Shown: piece after piece, positions 42,034 to 64,000 of the stretch
Numbering within the stretch: the stretch's first letter is position 1
Layout: each line of letters begins with the position of its first letter
Source: Pseudo-nitzschia pungens
Lineage: Eukaryota; Bacillariophyta; Bacillariophyceae; Bacillariales; Bacillariaceae
Assembly: GCA_037355855.1 (NCBI GenBank)
Contig: CM074766.1
Coordinates: forward strand, 682,001 to 746,000
Direction of reading: 5' to 3'
Length of the DNA stretch: 64,000 nucleotides
Made by a program: the position numbers and the translations under genes
Notes under the pieces: generated by a model
What the model was told of the DNA's origin: nothing
Seen by the model: the letters and a program-made list of their open reading frames with translations, nothing else
Databases searched by the model: none

Positions 42034-43644
42034 TTTTGTCTCCTTCTTTTCTGCAGGAAACCAAAGCTCTGTAACAGGAGGAGATGCAGTACCGAAGCAA
42101 CGGCAGTAGCAAAGGGATCGAACCCAGAATGAGTAATGTTTTATACCGTACTCGTACTGTGCGTTTGACAGGGGAGAACTTTTTGTCAAATAAGAGAAGT
42201 GCGAGTATCCTTCAGAAATGATAATACTGATGGCCCCGTTGATTCCTGATTGATTCTCTGCAAGAGAAAAGTCGATGCCGGAATGCAATTTCGTATTCTT
42301 AGTACGAGTAAGGTCTTACGAGTACGAATTACGTATTCACTACAACACGGTATCACCTGCCTCTTTTTTGTTCAGATCGAGACAGAAACTAAGAGTACGA
42401 GTATGTACCAGTAAGGCTTACGTATCCGTTTTGAATTTTGAAAAATACCTTTCTCTCCTGATGGCTTATATCGTCACAATAACGTTCCTTACCGACAGCG
42501 CGCGCACGGTACGTAGAAAGCATGCCCTGCCAACTGTATCTTCGGTTTTCCATGTTTCATCTCACAATTATCGTGCGTCATACGGATTGTATCAGAAATC
42601 GGATATCTTGTTTATATCCAAGGGGAGTGAGTCAAATGCATAGTACTAGTTCTGATCGGTTGACGCGATAGAGGTGCGGATCGGATTGCGATAGAGGTGC
42701 AGATCGGTTTGCAATAGAGGTGCAGATCGGATTGCGATAGAGGTGCGGATTGGTTGACGCAATAGAGGTGCGGATTGGTTTGCAATAGAGGTGCGGATCG
42801 GTTTGCAATAGAGGTGAAATACGTAGTAATAATAATAATCATAATCATATACGTACTTGTTCTCGTACGAAGTCGGGTATTCCTCATTCTAAGCTCTAGT
42901 AGTAGTATTGATTGATACATCCAAGAATTATTACGAATTTCTTAGACAGCACCTTAGCTCAACAATCACCAACGATAACTGAAATGCGGCGGACAGGAAA
43001 GAATGTTCAAAAAGTCACAACCGCTCTGTTCCAATTCGACTGATTTTCGTCTTTGCTGATATGGAAACCATCGTAACTATCATCATCATCATCATCATCA
43101 TCAACAACAACAAAAACAAACTATACTGTAGAGTTGTTGTTCATTGTCGTCATTGCTTTCAGGGGTCCCTGATTGCTTTCCCTCGGTGTATTCCCGGATT
43201 GCACAAACGAGATCGACACCCTTCTTTAACACCATCAACGGTTGACAGTTGGAGGAGATGTATTTGAGCCGAGCACCCAAGGCAGAGAAGGATCCCTACC
43301 GTGCTGTGGTCGTCGTCACAGTATGGTTAGATTCGGAGCATACAGCAGAATCGCATTCTTGCATTGGTTTTTTCTTACTAGTGCATTGGATCGGTGCGTG
43401 GATCAGTCTCGATAAGATCAGCTTCCGCTCCCGCGGATCTGGTTCACTTCCGGGGATAATCCAGTGTGGGTCCAACAGACAAAATCCAAGCGACCCAATA
43501 CCCGAACGATTCATTGGTATCAGGGCGACTAGTTTTCTAGCGCGACGATCTAGTATCTACGAGTGATGTTTAAGATATTCTTAAGTTTCAAAATTGTCTT
43601 TATAATATTGCATACGAGGCTCCTTTCCAACAAGAAGTAGTACA
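42034..43644. other. Intergenic region upstream of the permuted tRNA
   Basis: No protein gene recognised. Contains GTACGAGTAC-type words at 42300-42420, a 24-bp minisatellite at 42660-42815, an ATC run near 43080, and an open frame at 43249-43566 that does not look coding. Confidence 0.45.
42660..42815. repeat. Minisatellite, about 7 copies of a 23-25 bp unit
   Basis: The unit GCAATAGAGGTGCGGATCGG plus TTT or ATT is repeated about seven times with substitutions (GCGATAG/GCAATAG, GCAGATC/GCGGATT). Two copies carry GACGC in place of TTGC. Confidence 0.88.
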
Positions 43645-43721
43645 TCAGAAGATTTCGGGTTCGATTCCCGGGAGGGTTTAGTGTGACCCTTTGGCCCAAC
43701 GGTAAGGCGTCTGACTACGAA
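43645..43721 (+). tRNA. Circularly permuted tRNA-Arg(ACG) gene
   Basis: The 3' half (43645-43679) lies upstream of the 5' half (43685-43721), with AGTGT between. 3' half: anticodon-stem strand TCAGA, variable AGATT, T arm TCGGG-TTCGATT-CCCGG, acceptor strand GAGGGTT. 5' half: acceptor strand GACCCTT, TG, D arm GCCC-AACGGTA-AGGC, G26, stem TCTGA, loop CTACGAA with anticodon ACG. The acceptor strands pair 7 of 7, with G-U at the first and last pair; TCTGA pairs with TCAGA. The B box GGTTCGATTCC is perfect and precedes the A box TGGCCCAACGG, the reverse of a normal tRNA. No second 3' half was seen downstream, where a T5 run follows at once. Permuted tRNAs are known in red and green algae; they mature by end-joining, splicing and new end cleavage. 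Discriminator T73 is unusual. Confidence 0.82.
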
Positions 43722-43724
43722 TGG

Positions 43725-43729
43725 TTTTT
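43725..43729 (+). terminator. RNA polymerase III T-run terminator of the permuted tRNA
   Basis: TTTTT begins 3 nt after the last base of the 5' half. This placement fits a transcript that starts upstream of the 3' half and ends after the 5' half. Confidence 0.75.
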
Positions 43730-53939: not shown

Positions 53940-56900
53940 TTAAGCTGCCCAATGGATTGCTGAGTTGTCGGACTCGGAATGGTCCGTTGAGGGCTCTTTG
54001 TAAGGGGTTAACTTACGAATGTTAACGGTCTCGATGACCGTTGGAGTCTTCTGAATTTTGACAGTACCATTATCATGGACTTGGGCAATAGTGAATGGTC
54101 CTGTCTTTCGAGGCTGTAATTTGTCCGGATCCGGTTGTTGCATCCATACCTTATCATTGGGTTGAAAGGTATGTTCCTTGCGCTTAGCGTTATCTCTGAG
54201 CAGCGCCTTGTTAATCCCTTGTTGCCGGAGCTGTTGTAAGGCTAATAGGTTGGAAGTCAGGGGGAGATCAATTAGCATGTCCCGATTGAATACCAGGGCT
54301 CCTGGAGATGCTTGTAAGGCAGCATTGACAGCACACCTGGAGGCATGCATGCAGGTTGCCAGAGCGTTGTCCATGAGCTGACTGGCTCGGGTGTTGACTT
54401 GAGGAGGATTAACATGGACTAGCACGCGAAGGATGTCAGCAATTGTGTGATGGACTCTTTCACAGATGGCATTAGACTGTGGATTCTTCACTGTTGTTGG
54501 GACTGAATGGATTCCATACTGCTTGAGGGTAGTTTGAAATTCAGCCCCTAGGAATTCACCACCATTGTCGTGGATACATCTGATAGGTCTTGGGTATCTG
54601 GATAGCCAGCAATTCTTGAATTGATCTGATACATGCTGTGAGGACTTATCTCTGATTCTGATGATTTCAAGGAGATTGGTGACCGGATCGATGCAGGTTA
54701 GAGCTTTAAAATTGTAGCTCTTGCCTTGGGCTGTAATCTTCCATGGTCCTATGAGATCCACATGTACCTCATAGAATGGGGATAATGGCGCTTCTTTCGA
54801 TGGTAGTTTGCCATACTGGGAGTTCTGGTTCTTGTATTTGATGCAGTGATCTGGACATATGTAGGACTTGCATAAGCTGGTTAGATTATCAGCATAGAAT
54901 CGGGCTGAAATAGTCTGTTGTAATCTGGTGGATCCACAATGACCCAACAGGAGATGATACCACTGGATGGTATCATTAATGAGAGATGCTGGTATGTAGA
55001 TTCTCCAGCATTCGGGATTGGATTGGTTCGCGTAACAAAGTATCATGTTGCCTTCTAATTCTTGGTAGAAGAAGGTTTTCGATTGAGTCTTAAACTTGAT
55101 GGTTGGATCCTTCTGTTGATGAAGATAGATGTTGGAGTAGTTCACTGGGCATTCTAAGTCTTGGTTGTTAGGAAGGTTGATCAGACACTCATTGTTCAGC
55201 AAACAGGAGTACAATTCCTGATCTGCGTCATTGCATAAGTGCTGAAATAGGTTTGGGAACTCTGCTAGAAACAGTTCTTCATCTTGCTTGGGGACTTCAA
55301 GTTTTAGAAAATCAATAAGAGTGCCCTTACCAAGGGCTTCTTTCTTCCCCACAGTAGGTGGATCCATCCGGGGGAGCCTGGAGAAGGCATCAGCAAGAAC
55401 ATTCTTCTTGCCTTCAACGTAGGTGAGATTGACACCAAATTCTTCTAGGAAGAGCCTCCATCGGAGGACGCGTTGAACGGATAGGGTTCGGAAGGTAAGA
55501 TTCTTATGGTCAGTGTATACATTGATAACACCGCCTAGGAGCATTTTCCTGTACTCTTTGCAGCAGAGTACGATTGCTAGGAGTTCTTTCTCCGTAGTTG
55601 TATAATTCTTTTGGGCATCAGATAGTTTCTTGGACCAATATGCAATGGGCTTGCCATCTTGTATTATGGCAGCTCCTAATTGTAGGTCTGAGGCATCAGT
55701 GTACAGTTCAAAGGGCTTGTTAAGGTCTGGGTAGGTGTTCAGCGCATCTGCTGCCACCATTGCTTTCATCTCTTGAAAGGCTTTGTCTTGTGCAGGACCC
55801 CAAGTGAAAGCTGAGGGAGCTTTGCGTTGCTTGCCTTTGATGGCAGCTGCTTGAGGAGTCTTGGGGGTCCCAGTGATGTCAAAGAGAGGAGATAGGACAT
55901 GAGACCTTCGGGGCCACATGTCTCTGTAGTATCCAACTGCTCCTAGAAAGGATTTGACTTGGGTTATAGTTCGAGGTCTATCCATCTGTAGAATGGCTTC
56001 AATCTTCTTGCGCCATGGCTTAACTGCTGTGGGAGTCATCCAGTAGCCTAGGAAGTCAGTCTCTTGTACGGCCCAATCACATTTGAGTGGATTGCATTTA
56101 AGTCCATTTTGGTTGAGTCGGTCTAGGATCTTGTCAATGGTCTTCATGTGTAGATCAAAGGAGCCGTTGGTCCAAATGCCAATATCATCGATATAAACAG
56201 TGCAGTCAGTGTCTTGTAGGATATCTTCCATTAGTTGCTGGGCAACGTCTGGAGAAACCTTGACACCCATTGGTAGTCTTTGATACTCATAGCAGCCATA
56301 TGGCGTCACTATGGTACAGAGTTTCTTGCTTGCATCGTCCAGTTCAAAGCAGTAGTATTGCATGGACAAGTCAATCTTGGTGAAGTGAGTGTACTTGCCC
56401 CTCTTGTTCATGATATCCTGTATCCGGGGTATTGGATAAGGACGTCTTTCAAGCAGTTCATTGAGTTCTCTGAAGTCTGATACCCATCTAACTCTGTTGT
56501 CCTTCTTTGGAACAATAAAGGTAGGGAACGCCCATTCGGCCGGTCCAGTGCAACGCTTGAGGACTCCATCATTACAAAGATTCTGAAGTTCCCTTTTGAA
56601 TAGGTCTTCTCTTTTGTATGCAACTGGGTAAGGCCTTTTGTGTATGGGCTTGGATCCGGGCTTCAGTCTCAGGGAGATCTTCTTGTGTGGATATTTGCCT
56701 AGTTCTCCATTGAAGACGTTAGGGTATTTGCTTAGTATCGATTGGAACTGTTGCTGCTCTGCTGTGGACATGTGGGACTGTTGCTTGGCAACTGTGGATG
56801 GATCGGTTTCTTCGTAGGCCCTGTCTAGTATTACCTTGGACTTGTATGGATTAGCAAAGGATAGGTCGTCAGCGAAGAGTTCAGCATCTTCTAGTTCTTC

Positions 56901-57818
56901 CATGAGCATGGTATGATTGTCATGGTATAAGGATGTGTCCTTCATGGGAATGGTCCTATCCATCCATTGAACTGCTCCTTCTTTGAATAGGAGGTTGATC
57001 TGTGCTAGGTGGAGGAAGTCTCTGCCTAGTATCAAATCATACTTGCAGTTCGGGGAATGGAAGAGCCTTGCTTCTTGTTGGTGTATGGTGTAGTTGCCAA
57101 ACTCTTGTAGTTTAAGGTTCTTCATGATGATGTATTCTGTAGTATCGAAGCTTCCATTCGCTGTAGTGGTTATGACCTGGTGCTTGTTTCGAGTCGGTAT
57201 GGTGCCAAATGGTAGGGCCCGTTTGTTAATTAGTGTTCCAGAAGATCCGCTATCGAGTAGTGCGAGTAGTGGTCTTGATTTCGTTGGTATGCCTTGTGTG
57301 TACTGTACTGTAGTTAGTAGAATAGGAGCCACGTTGCTCTTATTCGGGGATGCCTGTTCTGCTGGATTTCCAGCAGTCGACAGCAGCTTTAAATAATTTT
57401 GCTCCAGCGCACCTCCTTTGGTGTAGTCTTTGGAGTTTTGGGTGTTGCAATAGAGATTTTTGGCTGTACCCGTAGACCAATTTCTTGCTAGAGACAAGAG
57501 TGGTCTATTTATTGCTGCTGCTGTCTTATTTCGATCGATCGCGTTGATCGATGTTGATGCGTCGGTTGTACCCTTGGATAGATTCGTTTGATTTCGATTC
57601 GTATCCCTGTTGTTCGGATTAGGATCCATGTTCGTATCGTTCGTTCCGGAGAATCGAACTGTTTTTGTTTTTGCTGCGTTTGCAGGCTTTGTTGAGCTTT
57701 CAACAGGAATACTCCATCCTGTAGGTTCCTTCCCCTCTTTATCTGGGAGATCTCCTCCATGCGTCATCCCAGACAGCGGGGCTGTGCTGGCATCCAGTTC
57801 CTGGGGAGCTGGAGGCAA
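53940..57818 (-). CDS. pol: Retrotransposon pol polyprotein (PR-RT-RH-INT)
   Basis: About 1,290 codons in the same frame as gag, separated from it by one UGA. Aspartic protease: LLALLDSGSSGT near residue 188. Reverse transcriptase: VSDFRELNELLERRPYPIP and the YIDD catalytic motif near 541. RNase H: YTDASDLQLGAAI near 704 and TDHKN. Integrase: zinc-binding region (GHCGST...CPDHC), then VDLIGPW, HDNGGEF near 1083, and a downstream Glu in the CERVHH region, consistent with D-D-E. All domains look uninterrupted, so the element is probably active. No chromodomain is apparent at the C terminus. The frame is open from just after the UGA (57875), so translation need not begin at 57818. Confidence 0.95.
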   Translation of the reverse strand: MPPAPQELDASTAPLSGMTHGGDLPDKEGKEPTGWSIPVESSTKPANAAKTKTVRFSGTNDTNMDPNPNNRDTNRNQTNLSKGTTDASTSINAIDRNKTAAAINRPLLSLARNWSTGTAKNLYCNTQNSKDYTKGGALEQNYLKLLSTAGNPAEQASPNKSNVAPILLTTVQYTQGIPTKSRPLLALLDSGSSGTLINKRALPFGTIPTRNKHQVITTTANGSFDTTEYIIMKNLKLQEFGNYTIHQQEARLFHSPNCKYDLILGRDFLHLAQINLLFKEGAVQWMDRTIPMKDTSLYHDNHTMLMEELEDAELFADDLSFANPYKSKVILDRAYEETDPSTVAKQQSHMSTAEQQQFQSILSKYPNVFNGELGKYPHKKISLRLKPGSKPIHKRPYPVAYKREDLFKRELQNLCNDGVLKRCTGPAEWAFPTFIVPKKDNRVRWVSDFRELNELLERRPYPIPRIQDIMNKRGKYTHFTKIDLSMQYYCFELDDASKKLCTIVTPYGCYEYQRLPMGVKVSPDVAQQLMEDILQDTDCTVYIDDIGIWTNGSFDLHMKTIDKILDRLNQNGLKCNPLKCDWAVQETDFLGYWMTPTAVKPWRKKIEAILQMDRPRTITQVKSFLGAVGYYRDMWPRRSHVLSPLFDITGTPKTPQAAAIKGKQRKAPSAFTWGPAQDKAFQEMKAMVAADALNTYPDLNKPFELYTDASDLQLGAAIIQDGKPIAYWSKKLSDAQKNYTTTEKELLAIVLCCKEYRKMLLGGVINVYTDHKNLTFRTLSVQRVLRWRLFLEEFGVNLTYVEGKKNVLADAFSRLPRMDPPTVGKKEALGKGTLIDFLKLEVPKQDEELFLAEFPNLFQHLCNDADQELYSCLLNNECLINLPNNQDLECPVNYSNIYLHQQKDPTIKFKTQSKTFFYQELEGNMILCYANQSNPECWRIYIPASLINDTIQWYHLLLGHCGSTRLQQTISARFYADNLTSLCKSYICPDHCIKYKNQNSQYGKLPSKEAPLSPFYEVHVDLIGPWKITAQGKSYNFKALTCIDPVTNLLEIIRIRDKSSQHVSDQFKNCWLSRYPRPIRCIHDNGGEFLGAEFQTTLKQYGIHSVPTTVKNPQSNAICERVHHTIADILRVLVHVNPPQVNTRASQLMDNALATCMHASRCAVNAALQASPGALVFNRDMLIDLPLTSNLLALQQLRQQGINKALLRDNAKRKEHTFQPNDKVWMQQPDPDKLQPRKTGPFTIAQVHDNGTVKIQKTPTVIETVNIRKLTPYKEPSTDHSESDNSAIHWAA

Positions 57819-63235: not shown

Positions 63236-63307
63236 AGCTCAGTAGCTCAGAGGTAGAGTGTTGGGCTCATAACCCAAAGGTCCGTGGATCGAAACCACGC
63301 TGAGCTA
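63236..63307 (+). tRNA. Initiator tRNA-Met (CAT)
   Basis: 72 nt. Acceptor AGCTCAG/CTGAGCT pairs fully, with discriminator A. Anticodon arm TTGGG-CTCATAA-CCCAA, anticodon CAT. Eukaryotic initiator marks are present: A1-U72, three G-C pairs next to the anticodon loop, and T loop ATCGAAA with A54. Confidence 0.93.
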
Positions 63308-63318
63308 GCGTCACTGCT

Positions 63319-63325
63319 GACATCG

Positions 63326-63364
<39 letters not shown>

Positions 63365-63398
63365 TTCGTTGGCGCAGGTTCGAATCCTGCCGATGTCA
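63319..63398 (+). tRNA. tRNA-Leu (TAG)
   Basis: 80 nt. Acceptor GACATCG/CGATGTC, anticodon arm CCAGA-TTTAGGC-TCTGG with anticodon TAG, an 11-nt variable arm, T arm GCAGG-TTCGAAT-CCTGC, discriminator A. A T5 run at 63400-63404 serves as terminator. Only 11 bp separate it from the initiator tRNA. Confidence 0.95.
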
Positions 63399-64000
63399 CT
63401 TTTTGCGGGTCCAGCACCAGTTGTAGTTGTCAGAAAAAGTAAATACTAGAAGTAATAGAGAAGCAAAAAGAGACGACCAGCAGAAATCACTGCAGCCAGT
63501 AGTTTGCAACACTAGCTTCCTCACATGAGTCGTACCGGTACGAAGCACTGCATCCAACGTCTTGACACCTCGTCCGTCTTTCATCATGGTGATATCGTGC
63601 ACAATGGCTCCTTCTCAAGAGATGACAATTCTTCCGTGCCGTACGGTACGAGTACCCGGTAACTTACTGTTGGATAGAAACATAGCAAGTGATGTCATTT
63701 TCATTCACGCGGTTGCGTTGTAACACAACACTGTGCTGCTGGTAGGAGTACTAGTAGCCGGGGTGGGGGATACAACGACAAGAAGCGTGCATCCTTTGAT
63801 AGTTCTAGTAGCATTTAGTCTGCTTGTACCCATATGGTTGATGGACAAACATTGGTGGAACACAACAGGCGGTGCAGACAACGGAAGCACCTCCACATTC
63901 TTCCATGGATGGAACGGGAAGGAACATCTTTCAATGAACAGCATCCTCCAACCCCCCCCCGAAAGGAATGCGTCGCGCAAACGAATTGTGTGCGCCGTTT
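63399..64000. other. Terminal region, no gene recognised
   Basis: After the tRNA-Leu terminator I see only short open frames without protein-like character and GTACGGTACGAGTACC-type words near 63640-63660. Confidence 0.45.

Follow-up and report, generated by a model that had tools for sequence, protein, structure and literature searches.

Can a tRNA gene whose 3' half lies upstream of its 5' half be the working form of that gene in a diatom? The question is raised by a locus in the window, by which we mean the whole 64,000-nucleotide stretch of Pseudo-nitzschia pungens DNA that was analysed; it lies within contig C9 of an assembly of 66.9 Mb and 28 contigs. The original prediction, made from the letters of the sequence, read this locus as a circularly permuted tRNA-Arg(ACG) gene in the nuclear genome of a diatom-like organism.

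Permuted tRNA genes are themselves known. Those that we found described belong to one red alga, to green algae, to one archaeon, and to nucleomorphs of green origin in chlorarachniophytes (PMC3978253, PMC4494063, PMC12636532). The 34 permuted genes listed by Soma 2014 (PMC3978253) belong to six algae and one archaeon; the list includes no diatom and no Arg(ACG), and the stramenopile lineage is absent from its table. Additions since that review include the nucleomorph of Amorphochlora (PMC4494063) and Auxenochlorella (PMC12636532). In the literature that we searched, partly through abstracts and passages, we found no report of permuted tRNA genes in a diatom, and a full-text search of the open literature returned no paper on permuted tRNA in Nannochloropsis.

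We argue here that the window locus is very probably one of eight functional type II (37/38) permuted nuclear genes that supply the cytosol with tRNA-Arg(ACG), and that tRNA-Cys(GCA) is very probably encoded likewise. Our argument is built on sequence comparison: the architecture of the locus, the size and conservation of two gene families, the search for conventional counterparts, and the signals that flank each copy.

Architecture of the window locus

A full tRNA-Arg(ACG) is encoded at positions 43644–43720 of the window, the 3' half coming ahead of the 5' half and the two being joined at the canonical 37/38 splice position. The parts of the locus are as follows.

43600..43608, + strand: TATA-like box (ttataatat), by motif and position a likely upstream Pol III promoter element
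43628..43643, + strand: precursor 5' leader (caacaagaagtagtac), with a putative start site
43637..43640, + strand: GTAG, which by complementarity can pair with anticodon-loop bases 32–35 as the central helix of a bulge-helix-bulge
43644..43679, + strand: tRNA-Arg(ACG) 3' half, A38 to discriminator T73
43658..43668, + strand: B box (GGTTCGATTCC), upstream of the A box here, read from the sequence
43680..43684, + strand: linker AGTGT, 5 nt, between the 3' end and the 5' end of the tRNA, expected to be excised
43685..43720, + strand: tRNA-Arg(ACG) 5' half, G1 to A37, with the anticodon ACG at 43717–43719
43692..43702, + strand: A box (TGGCCCAACGG), downstream of the B box here, read from the sequence
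43715..43718, + strand: anticodon-loop C32 to C35 (CTAC), pairing partner of the leader GTAG
43725..43729, + strand: T5, Pol III terminator, starting at the fifth base past the 5' half

The original prediction had described this order of the halves, a B box preceding the A box, 5 nt between the acceptor strands, and a T5 terminator after the gene, and the locus is built as it described. Its coordinates were off by one at the junction, the true halves being 43644–43679 and 43685–43720. We begin the 3' half at A38 and end the 5' half at A37 because an A precedes TCAGA in all eight copies of the gene in the assembly but follows CTACGA in four of the eight.

In the unrearranged order, neither ARAGORN nor Rfam detects a tRNA at the locus; once the halves are joined, ARAGORN calls tRNA-Arg(acg). 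The joined molecule is a complete tRNA with the consensus bases U8, G18G19, U33, and TTC, and it forms 20 of 21 stem pairs, C13-A22 being unpaired. Model R2, a covariance model that sets 19 further tRNAs from this assembly, both nuclear and plastid-like, in permuted order and excludes Arg(ACG) and Cys, gives the locus a score of 59.9 bits, with E 5.4e-18 when the window is searched. At 16.8 bits, the runner-up in the window overlaps a normal tRNA-Met.

The protein-coding content of the window points to its host. Among the best 120 of 4849 matches, residues 700–1300 of the acetyl-CoA carboxylase ORF share 99% identity with an MMETSP protein, 96% with a JGI protein labelled Psemu1, which we take to be P. 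multiseries, and 95% with one from P. australis; in the same set, identity is 85% to Cylindrotheca closterium and 84% to Nitzschia inconspicua. For the CobN-like ORF, the best species-named matches are Fragilariopsis cylindrus (64%) and Seminavis robusta (62%). The carboxylase identities put the window among the diatoms, close to Pseudo-nitzschia, and bear out the claim of a permuted tRNA-Arg(ACG) in a diatom nuclear genome.

Eight Arg(ACG) copies, all permuted

A 160-base query identified eight Arg copies on six contigs (C5 twice, C6, C7, C9, C10 twice, and C12), and the tRNA is permuted in every one of these loci. The bodies of the copies are nearly identical, and the linkers, constant at 5 nt in 8/8, have different letters in each. 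BLAST among the eight 3 kb loci finds similarity that spans 77–105 bp, at the gene. From near-identical bodies set among divergent linkers and flanks, it seems that selection maintains the permuted form.

Each copy forms 20/21 pairs, with C13-A22 unpaired in all eight, and the window copy differs from the other seven by one extra T-stem G-U pair, U49-G65. T73 and G1-U72 are constant in 8/8 copies. U73 in this family (L001–L008) compares with G73 in Arg(TCT) and A73 in Arg(TCG) of the same genome; the diatom's arginyl-tRNA synthetase would have to recognise U73. Position 20 is U in six copies, A in L007, and C in L008. Igloi 2022 (PMC8975779), with tRNA sequences taken from annotations, or by BLASTN and then tRNAscan-SE, describes diatom nuclear tRNA-Arg as carrying U20 or C20.

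The original prediction had itself raised the possibility that the odd T73 and the terminal G-U mark a decaying copy. Under this reading, the Arg locus is a rearranged pseudogene and a conventional gene at another place supplies the genuine tRNA-Arg(ACG); a U73 where the other tRNA-Arg seen here have G73 or A73, a weak first pair, and the additional G-U pair of the window copy would all fit. However, T73 and G1-U72 are shared by 8/8 copies, each of which keeps 20 of its pairs, and our searches found no conventional nuclear Arg(ACG) gene. A truly decayed copy also looks different: Cys locus L144, described below, has 17/21 pairs and 24.8 bits. Decay is thus very unlikely to explain the Arg locus.

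Even less likely, in our estimate exceedingly so, is a tRNA-derived mobile element (SINE) that dispersed permuted halves devoid of tRNA function. Eight dispersed loci per family and a short unit of Pol III type would suit such an element, but BLAST finds no sequence common to the Arg copies beyond the gene in the 3 kb loci, and the stems, anticodon, and splice-site bases are conserved while the linkers are free. A longer unit is common to three Cys loci, and this proves to be a tRNA-Leu(CAA)-like gene.

Search for conventional Arg(ACG) genes

According to the original prediction, the locus would have to be functional if no Arg(ACG) gene of conventional order were present in the assembly. The sole conventional one that we found lies in a plastid-like stretch, and the eight nuclear copies found are all permuted. 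A joined mature Arg query against the genome produced 16 matches, namely the two halves at each of the eight loci (8/8 candidates scored), and no contiguous nuclear copy of Arg(ACG), in a search of the assembly that a strongly diverged gene could escape. The order 5' half-intron-3' half is absent at the Arg loci.

A second search, for TACGR with a B box 14–34 bases on, returned 22 places in the genome compared with 15 for a reversed control pattern. On these 22 loci ARAGORN called one tRNA-Arg(acg), L064, in a stretch whose plastid-like status we judge from its neighbours. The pattern revealed no conventional nuclear Arg(ACG), within the reach of a search that a gene could escape if its sequence or B box departed strongly.

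A second permuted family: tRNA-Cys(GCA)

The Cys family was found via 60 sampled B-box regions on C1 and then a scan of 67 loci with R1, our initial model of permuted order. The first Cys match is full-length, with 57.7 bits under R1 and all 21 pairs. A genome search gave eight places, each spanning the permuted query (7/7 candidates scored), and no lone Cys halves or other Cys match; a strongly diverged conventional Cys gene could escape this search. The 3' half of tRNA-Cys(GCA) lies upstream in 8/8 loci, and seven copies are intact: six form 21/21 pairs and L143 forms 20. R2, which was built without Cys, gives these seven 53.2–57.4 bits, L142 being scored as a second match within L141. Linkers are 6 nt in six intact copies and 8 nt in one. 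The Cys copies carry U73, as expected of a tRNA-Cys under the identity rule. The eighth copy, L144, is probably dead, judging from its broken pairs and low score.

Three of the Cys loci have a neighbour in common. L137 and L138 sit directly downstream of a tRNA-Leu(CAA) gene, and these two loci and L144 have in common 206–220 bp that include the tRNA-Leu(CAA) gene or its remains (BLAST); in L144, ARAGORN does not call the Leu gene. About 25–30 bases lead from tRNA-Leu(CAA) to the permuted Cys in L137 (C1) and L138 (C10), without a T4 run between them, and L144 has a T7 run at the corresponding place. It is possible that L137 and L138 give rise to a dicistronic transcript, Leu plus permuted Cys, in which a conventional and a permuted tRNA are combined.

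L141 and L142 form a tandem pair of permuted Cys genes (C12:1705987–1706238), the type of arrangement required by models of how permutation arises or is reversed. Over this pair ARAGORN reads a conventional tRNA-Cys, made of the 5' half of the first gene and the 3' half of the second, with a 96-nt intron that has a T5 run inside.

The sixteen loci are spread over eight contigs (C1, C5, C6, C7, C9, C10, C11, and C12), and on this ground we reject an assembly artefact. We also give virtually no weight to the idea that the halves come from two conventional tRNAs standing side by side in tandem, with the permutation an illusion across the spacer. Tandem tRNAs with short spacers do exist in the genome, and R1 scores such junctions at up to 43.6 bits in nuclear loci and at 46.7 bits beside plastid-like tRNAs (L034). 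Yet there are exactly two Arg halves per locus, so that the outer halves are absent, and the acceptor stem is fully paired (7/7) in 14 of the 15 intact copies and has 6/7 pairs in L143, whereas the tandem junctions inspected have broken or skipped pairs. Across the window and all but 15 of 145 loci, R1 exceeds 47 bits in the Arg and Cys loci only.

Since no conventional nuclear gene was found for Arg(ACG) or Cys, cytosolic CGU/CGC and both Cys codons would depend on the permuted genes. In five ORFs of the window, CGT and CGC account for 79 of the 200 Arg codons, and Cys makes up 77 of all 4483 codons. A milder alternative grants that the permuted genes are expressed and processed, and supposes that conventional genes which we missed supply most of both tRNAs. 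Search sensitivity is limited and our conventional inventory is a sample, both of which favour this view; two different Arg searches and one Cys search nevertheless gave no nuclear gene, and we hold it to be unlikely. The preferred reading remains that the permuted copies are the functional cytosolic genes.

Other candidates in the genome

Composites of 23 and 24 tRNAs in permuted order, which left out Gly, Tyr, Trp, elongator Met, and several minor isoacceptors, led only to conventional or tandem genes and to no other permuted isoacceptor among the 40 that were scored, out of 179 candidates for one composite and 188 for the other. The first composite gave chimeric conventional matches because similar units stood adjacent in it. 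In the second, which had random spacers, the top matches, to the Asn unit, turned out to be Asn-Lys tandems.

B-box matches number 1060 in the genome against 264 in the control. This excess is not mostly tRNA, as ARAGORN found nothing in 45 of 68 sampled loci; by eye, 17 of the 41 B-box loci listed fall into three repeat families. By eye as well, a repeat family on C1 carries the B-box-like GGTTCGAGTCC in its conserved body (L077, L118, L120, L123, L125, L129–L132, and L135); this family is maybe a short interspersed element. Exact patterns of the permuted genes had no match in viral and prokaryote collections, where near relatives are perhaps absent.

Several other features of the genome were recorded. 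Conventional tRNAs often stand in tandem with spacers of 5–20 nt, as in Asn-Lys-Gln, Val-Ala, Arg-Asp, Ser-Pro, and Met-Leu (L081, L082, L083, L093, and window 63236–63399). Repeated plastid-like tRNA genes occur near contig ends and on small contigs (C7:4.80–5.22 Mb, C5:5.86–5.98 Mb, C23, and C24; Rfam); these could be organelle genomes that the assembly has fused to nuclear contigs, or else plastid insertions of very large size. On the minus strand of the window, 53940–57818 is a long ORF with matches to reverse transcriptase, RNase H, integrase, and aspartyl protease, presumably a Ty3-like retroelement.

Leader, promoter, and terminator signals

The leaders are complementary to loop bases 32–35, in a relaxed form of the bulge-helix-bulge, with 4/4 pairs in 10 of the 16 loci, three pairs in five, and two in L003. 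Among Arg leaders, 6/8 have all four pairs, L003 has two, and L008 has three; among Cys leaders, four copies have 3/4. Leaders and their own anticodon loops form 29/32 pairs in the Arg family and 28/32 in the Cys family, L144 included (best of two offsets, G-U allowed). None of 20000 leader shuffles reaches either count. When the 16 leaders are redistributed between the two loops and Watson-Crick pairs alone are counted, 4 of 12870 arrangements do equally well. The copies in a family share ancestry, so neither figure is a strict probability. G-U pairs were left out of the redistribution because scoring with them fails to separate the Arg leaders from the Cys loop. By Watson-Crick pairing, Arg leaders form 29 pairs with their own loop versus 15 with the Cys loop, and Cys leaders form 25 versus 17. 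Minimum-energy folds of single precursors show the cloverleaf and leader helix in part of the copies, and others, for example L003, L007, and L141, fold otherwise. CAA-rich stretches, observed by eye, also precede some conventional tRNA genes.

A run of at least four T begins at most 11 nt after the 5' half in 15/16 permuted loci, and at +29 in L007. Upstream, a TATA-like motif is present at -44 to -34 in 7/8 Arg copies and absent in L008, compared with 10/40 conventional tRNA genes of a sample from which two were dropped (short or duplicate flanks) and plastid-like and duplicate loci had been excluded beforehand (Fisher p 0.0017 for Arg vs the 40). Against the conventional genes that come first in their unit (10/29, a hand count), Arg alone gives p 0.014, and Arg together with the five Cys loci that do not follow a tRNA-Leu-like unit gives p 0.019. 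The box occurs in 3/8 Cys loci, which is 3/5 of these five; L142 comes second in its tandem.

Proposed processing pathway

With the A and B boxes in reversed order, we propose that Pol III is recruited mainly via the upstream TATA-like element. It would transcribe the leader, 3' half, linker, 5' half, and trailer, and stop at the T run. The RNA would fold as a cloverleaf with its acceptor stem closed by the linker, and the leader would pair with anticodon-loop bases 32–35 to give the relaxed bulge-helix-bulge. The tRNA-intron endonuclease could then cut after A37 and before A38, and a ligase would join both ends into a circular pre-tRNA, from which RNase P and tRNase Z would remove the linker before CCA is added, a mechanism already known outside the diatoms. 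The eight-locus Cys family, through its seven intact copies, would yield tRNA-Cys(GCA) by an identical route. We infer transcription, the circle, the enzymes, and final aminoacylation from such features; circularisation by the splicing machinery, already suggested in the original prediction, is what the bulge-helix-bulge and the endonuclease match point to.

That match is a single one in the genome for the tRNA-intron endonuclease domain PF01974 (C2:1561023, 57.5 bits). The same locus has low-scoring matches (best 26.2 bits) to PDB chains named tRNA-splicing endonuclease, presumably of archaeal origin. In addition, ARAGORN reports tRNA-Phe and tRNA-Met with introns near 37/38 in this genome. 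Genome searches gave no match for RtcB (PF01139), which was detected in 9/14 controls; for the T4-type ligase family PF09511, which was detected in none of the controls either; or for the TFIIIC B-block PF04182, a weak test given that the controls are prokaryotes.

Comparison with known permuted tRNA genes

The prasinophytes Ostreococcus and Micromonas (Maruyama et al. 2010, via PMC3978253) resemble the diatom in placing the 3' half first, in the 37/38 junction, and in a relaxed bulge-helix-bulge. Some of their genes have an AT-rich upstream region, and tRNA-Cys(GCA) is permuted there as well (PMC3978253), in three prasinophytes according to the table in Soma 2014 (PMC3978253). They differ in that they are green algae and the diatom is a stramenopile, and the sole green-algal Arg in that table is Arg(TCT) (PMC3978253). 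Their intervening sequences are 11–64 nt (PMC3978253), as against 5 nt for Arg and 6–8 nt for intact Cys in the diatom. The diatom has eight loci per tRNA.

The red alga C. merolae likewise has an upstream TATA-like box and a T stretch (PMC3978253), and its circular RNA, shown by RT-PCR (PMC3978253), is the counterpart of the one that we propose. In C. merolae there are four junction types and nearly all permuted genes are single-copy, in 16.5 Mb, whereas in the diatom 37/38 is the only junction seen and the genes are multicopy, in an assembly of 66.9 Mb; the C. merolae list has neither Arg(ACG) nor Cys (PMC3978253). The 37/38 junction is also that of the chlorarachniophyte nucleomorphs (Bigelowiella natans; Amorphochlora amoebiformis, PMC4494063), and the 5-nt intervening sequences tabulated for B. 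natans equal those of the diatom Arg family in length (PMC3978253). These nucleomorphs, by contrast, are relict endosymbiont nuclei of green origin, and their permuted genes are for serine tRNAs (PMC4494063). In the green alga Auxenochlorella, permuted genes were found because the tRNAscan-SE set was incomplete (PMC12636532). What stands out in the diatom is eight loci per tRNA together with no conventional gene found.

Implications

We lean towards the view that, in the lineage of this diatom, the permuted form took over entirely from conventional genes for two cytosolic tRNAs that are essential, and then multiplied, such that all reading of CGU/CGC and Cys codons passes via circular RNA. Arg(ACG) and Cys genes that exist only in permuted form would explain their absence from standard tRNA annotation of such a genome. 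If this is true, permuted tRNA genes would be a stable, amplifiable gene form in major ocean phytoplankton, no quirk of streamlined algae, and the form may extend throughout diatoms; the permutation of tRNA-Cys(GCA) in common with prasinophytes might even reflect common descent. Sixteen permuted loci in a stramenopile, for two tRNAs whose conventional counterparts our searches did not detect, would show that this form is more widespread, that it can be multicopy, and that it reaches beyond compact genomes. The two families, which have about eight copies for each tRNA, linkers that are free, and leaders that vary, provide a natural set for probing the demands that the splicing endonuclease, RNase P, and tRNase Z make of circular substrates, and they may also inform how Pol III copes with reversed A and B boxes.
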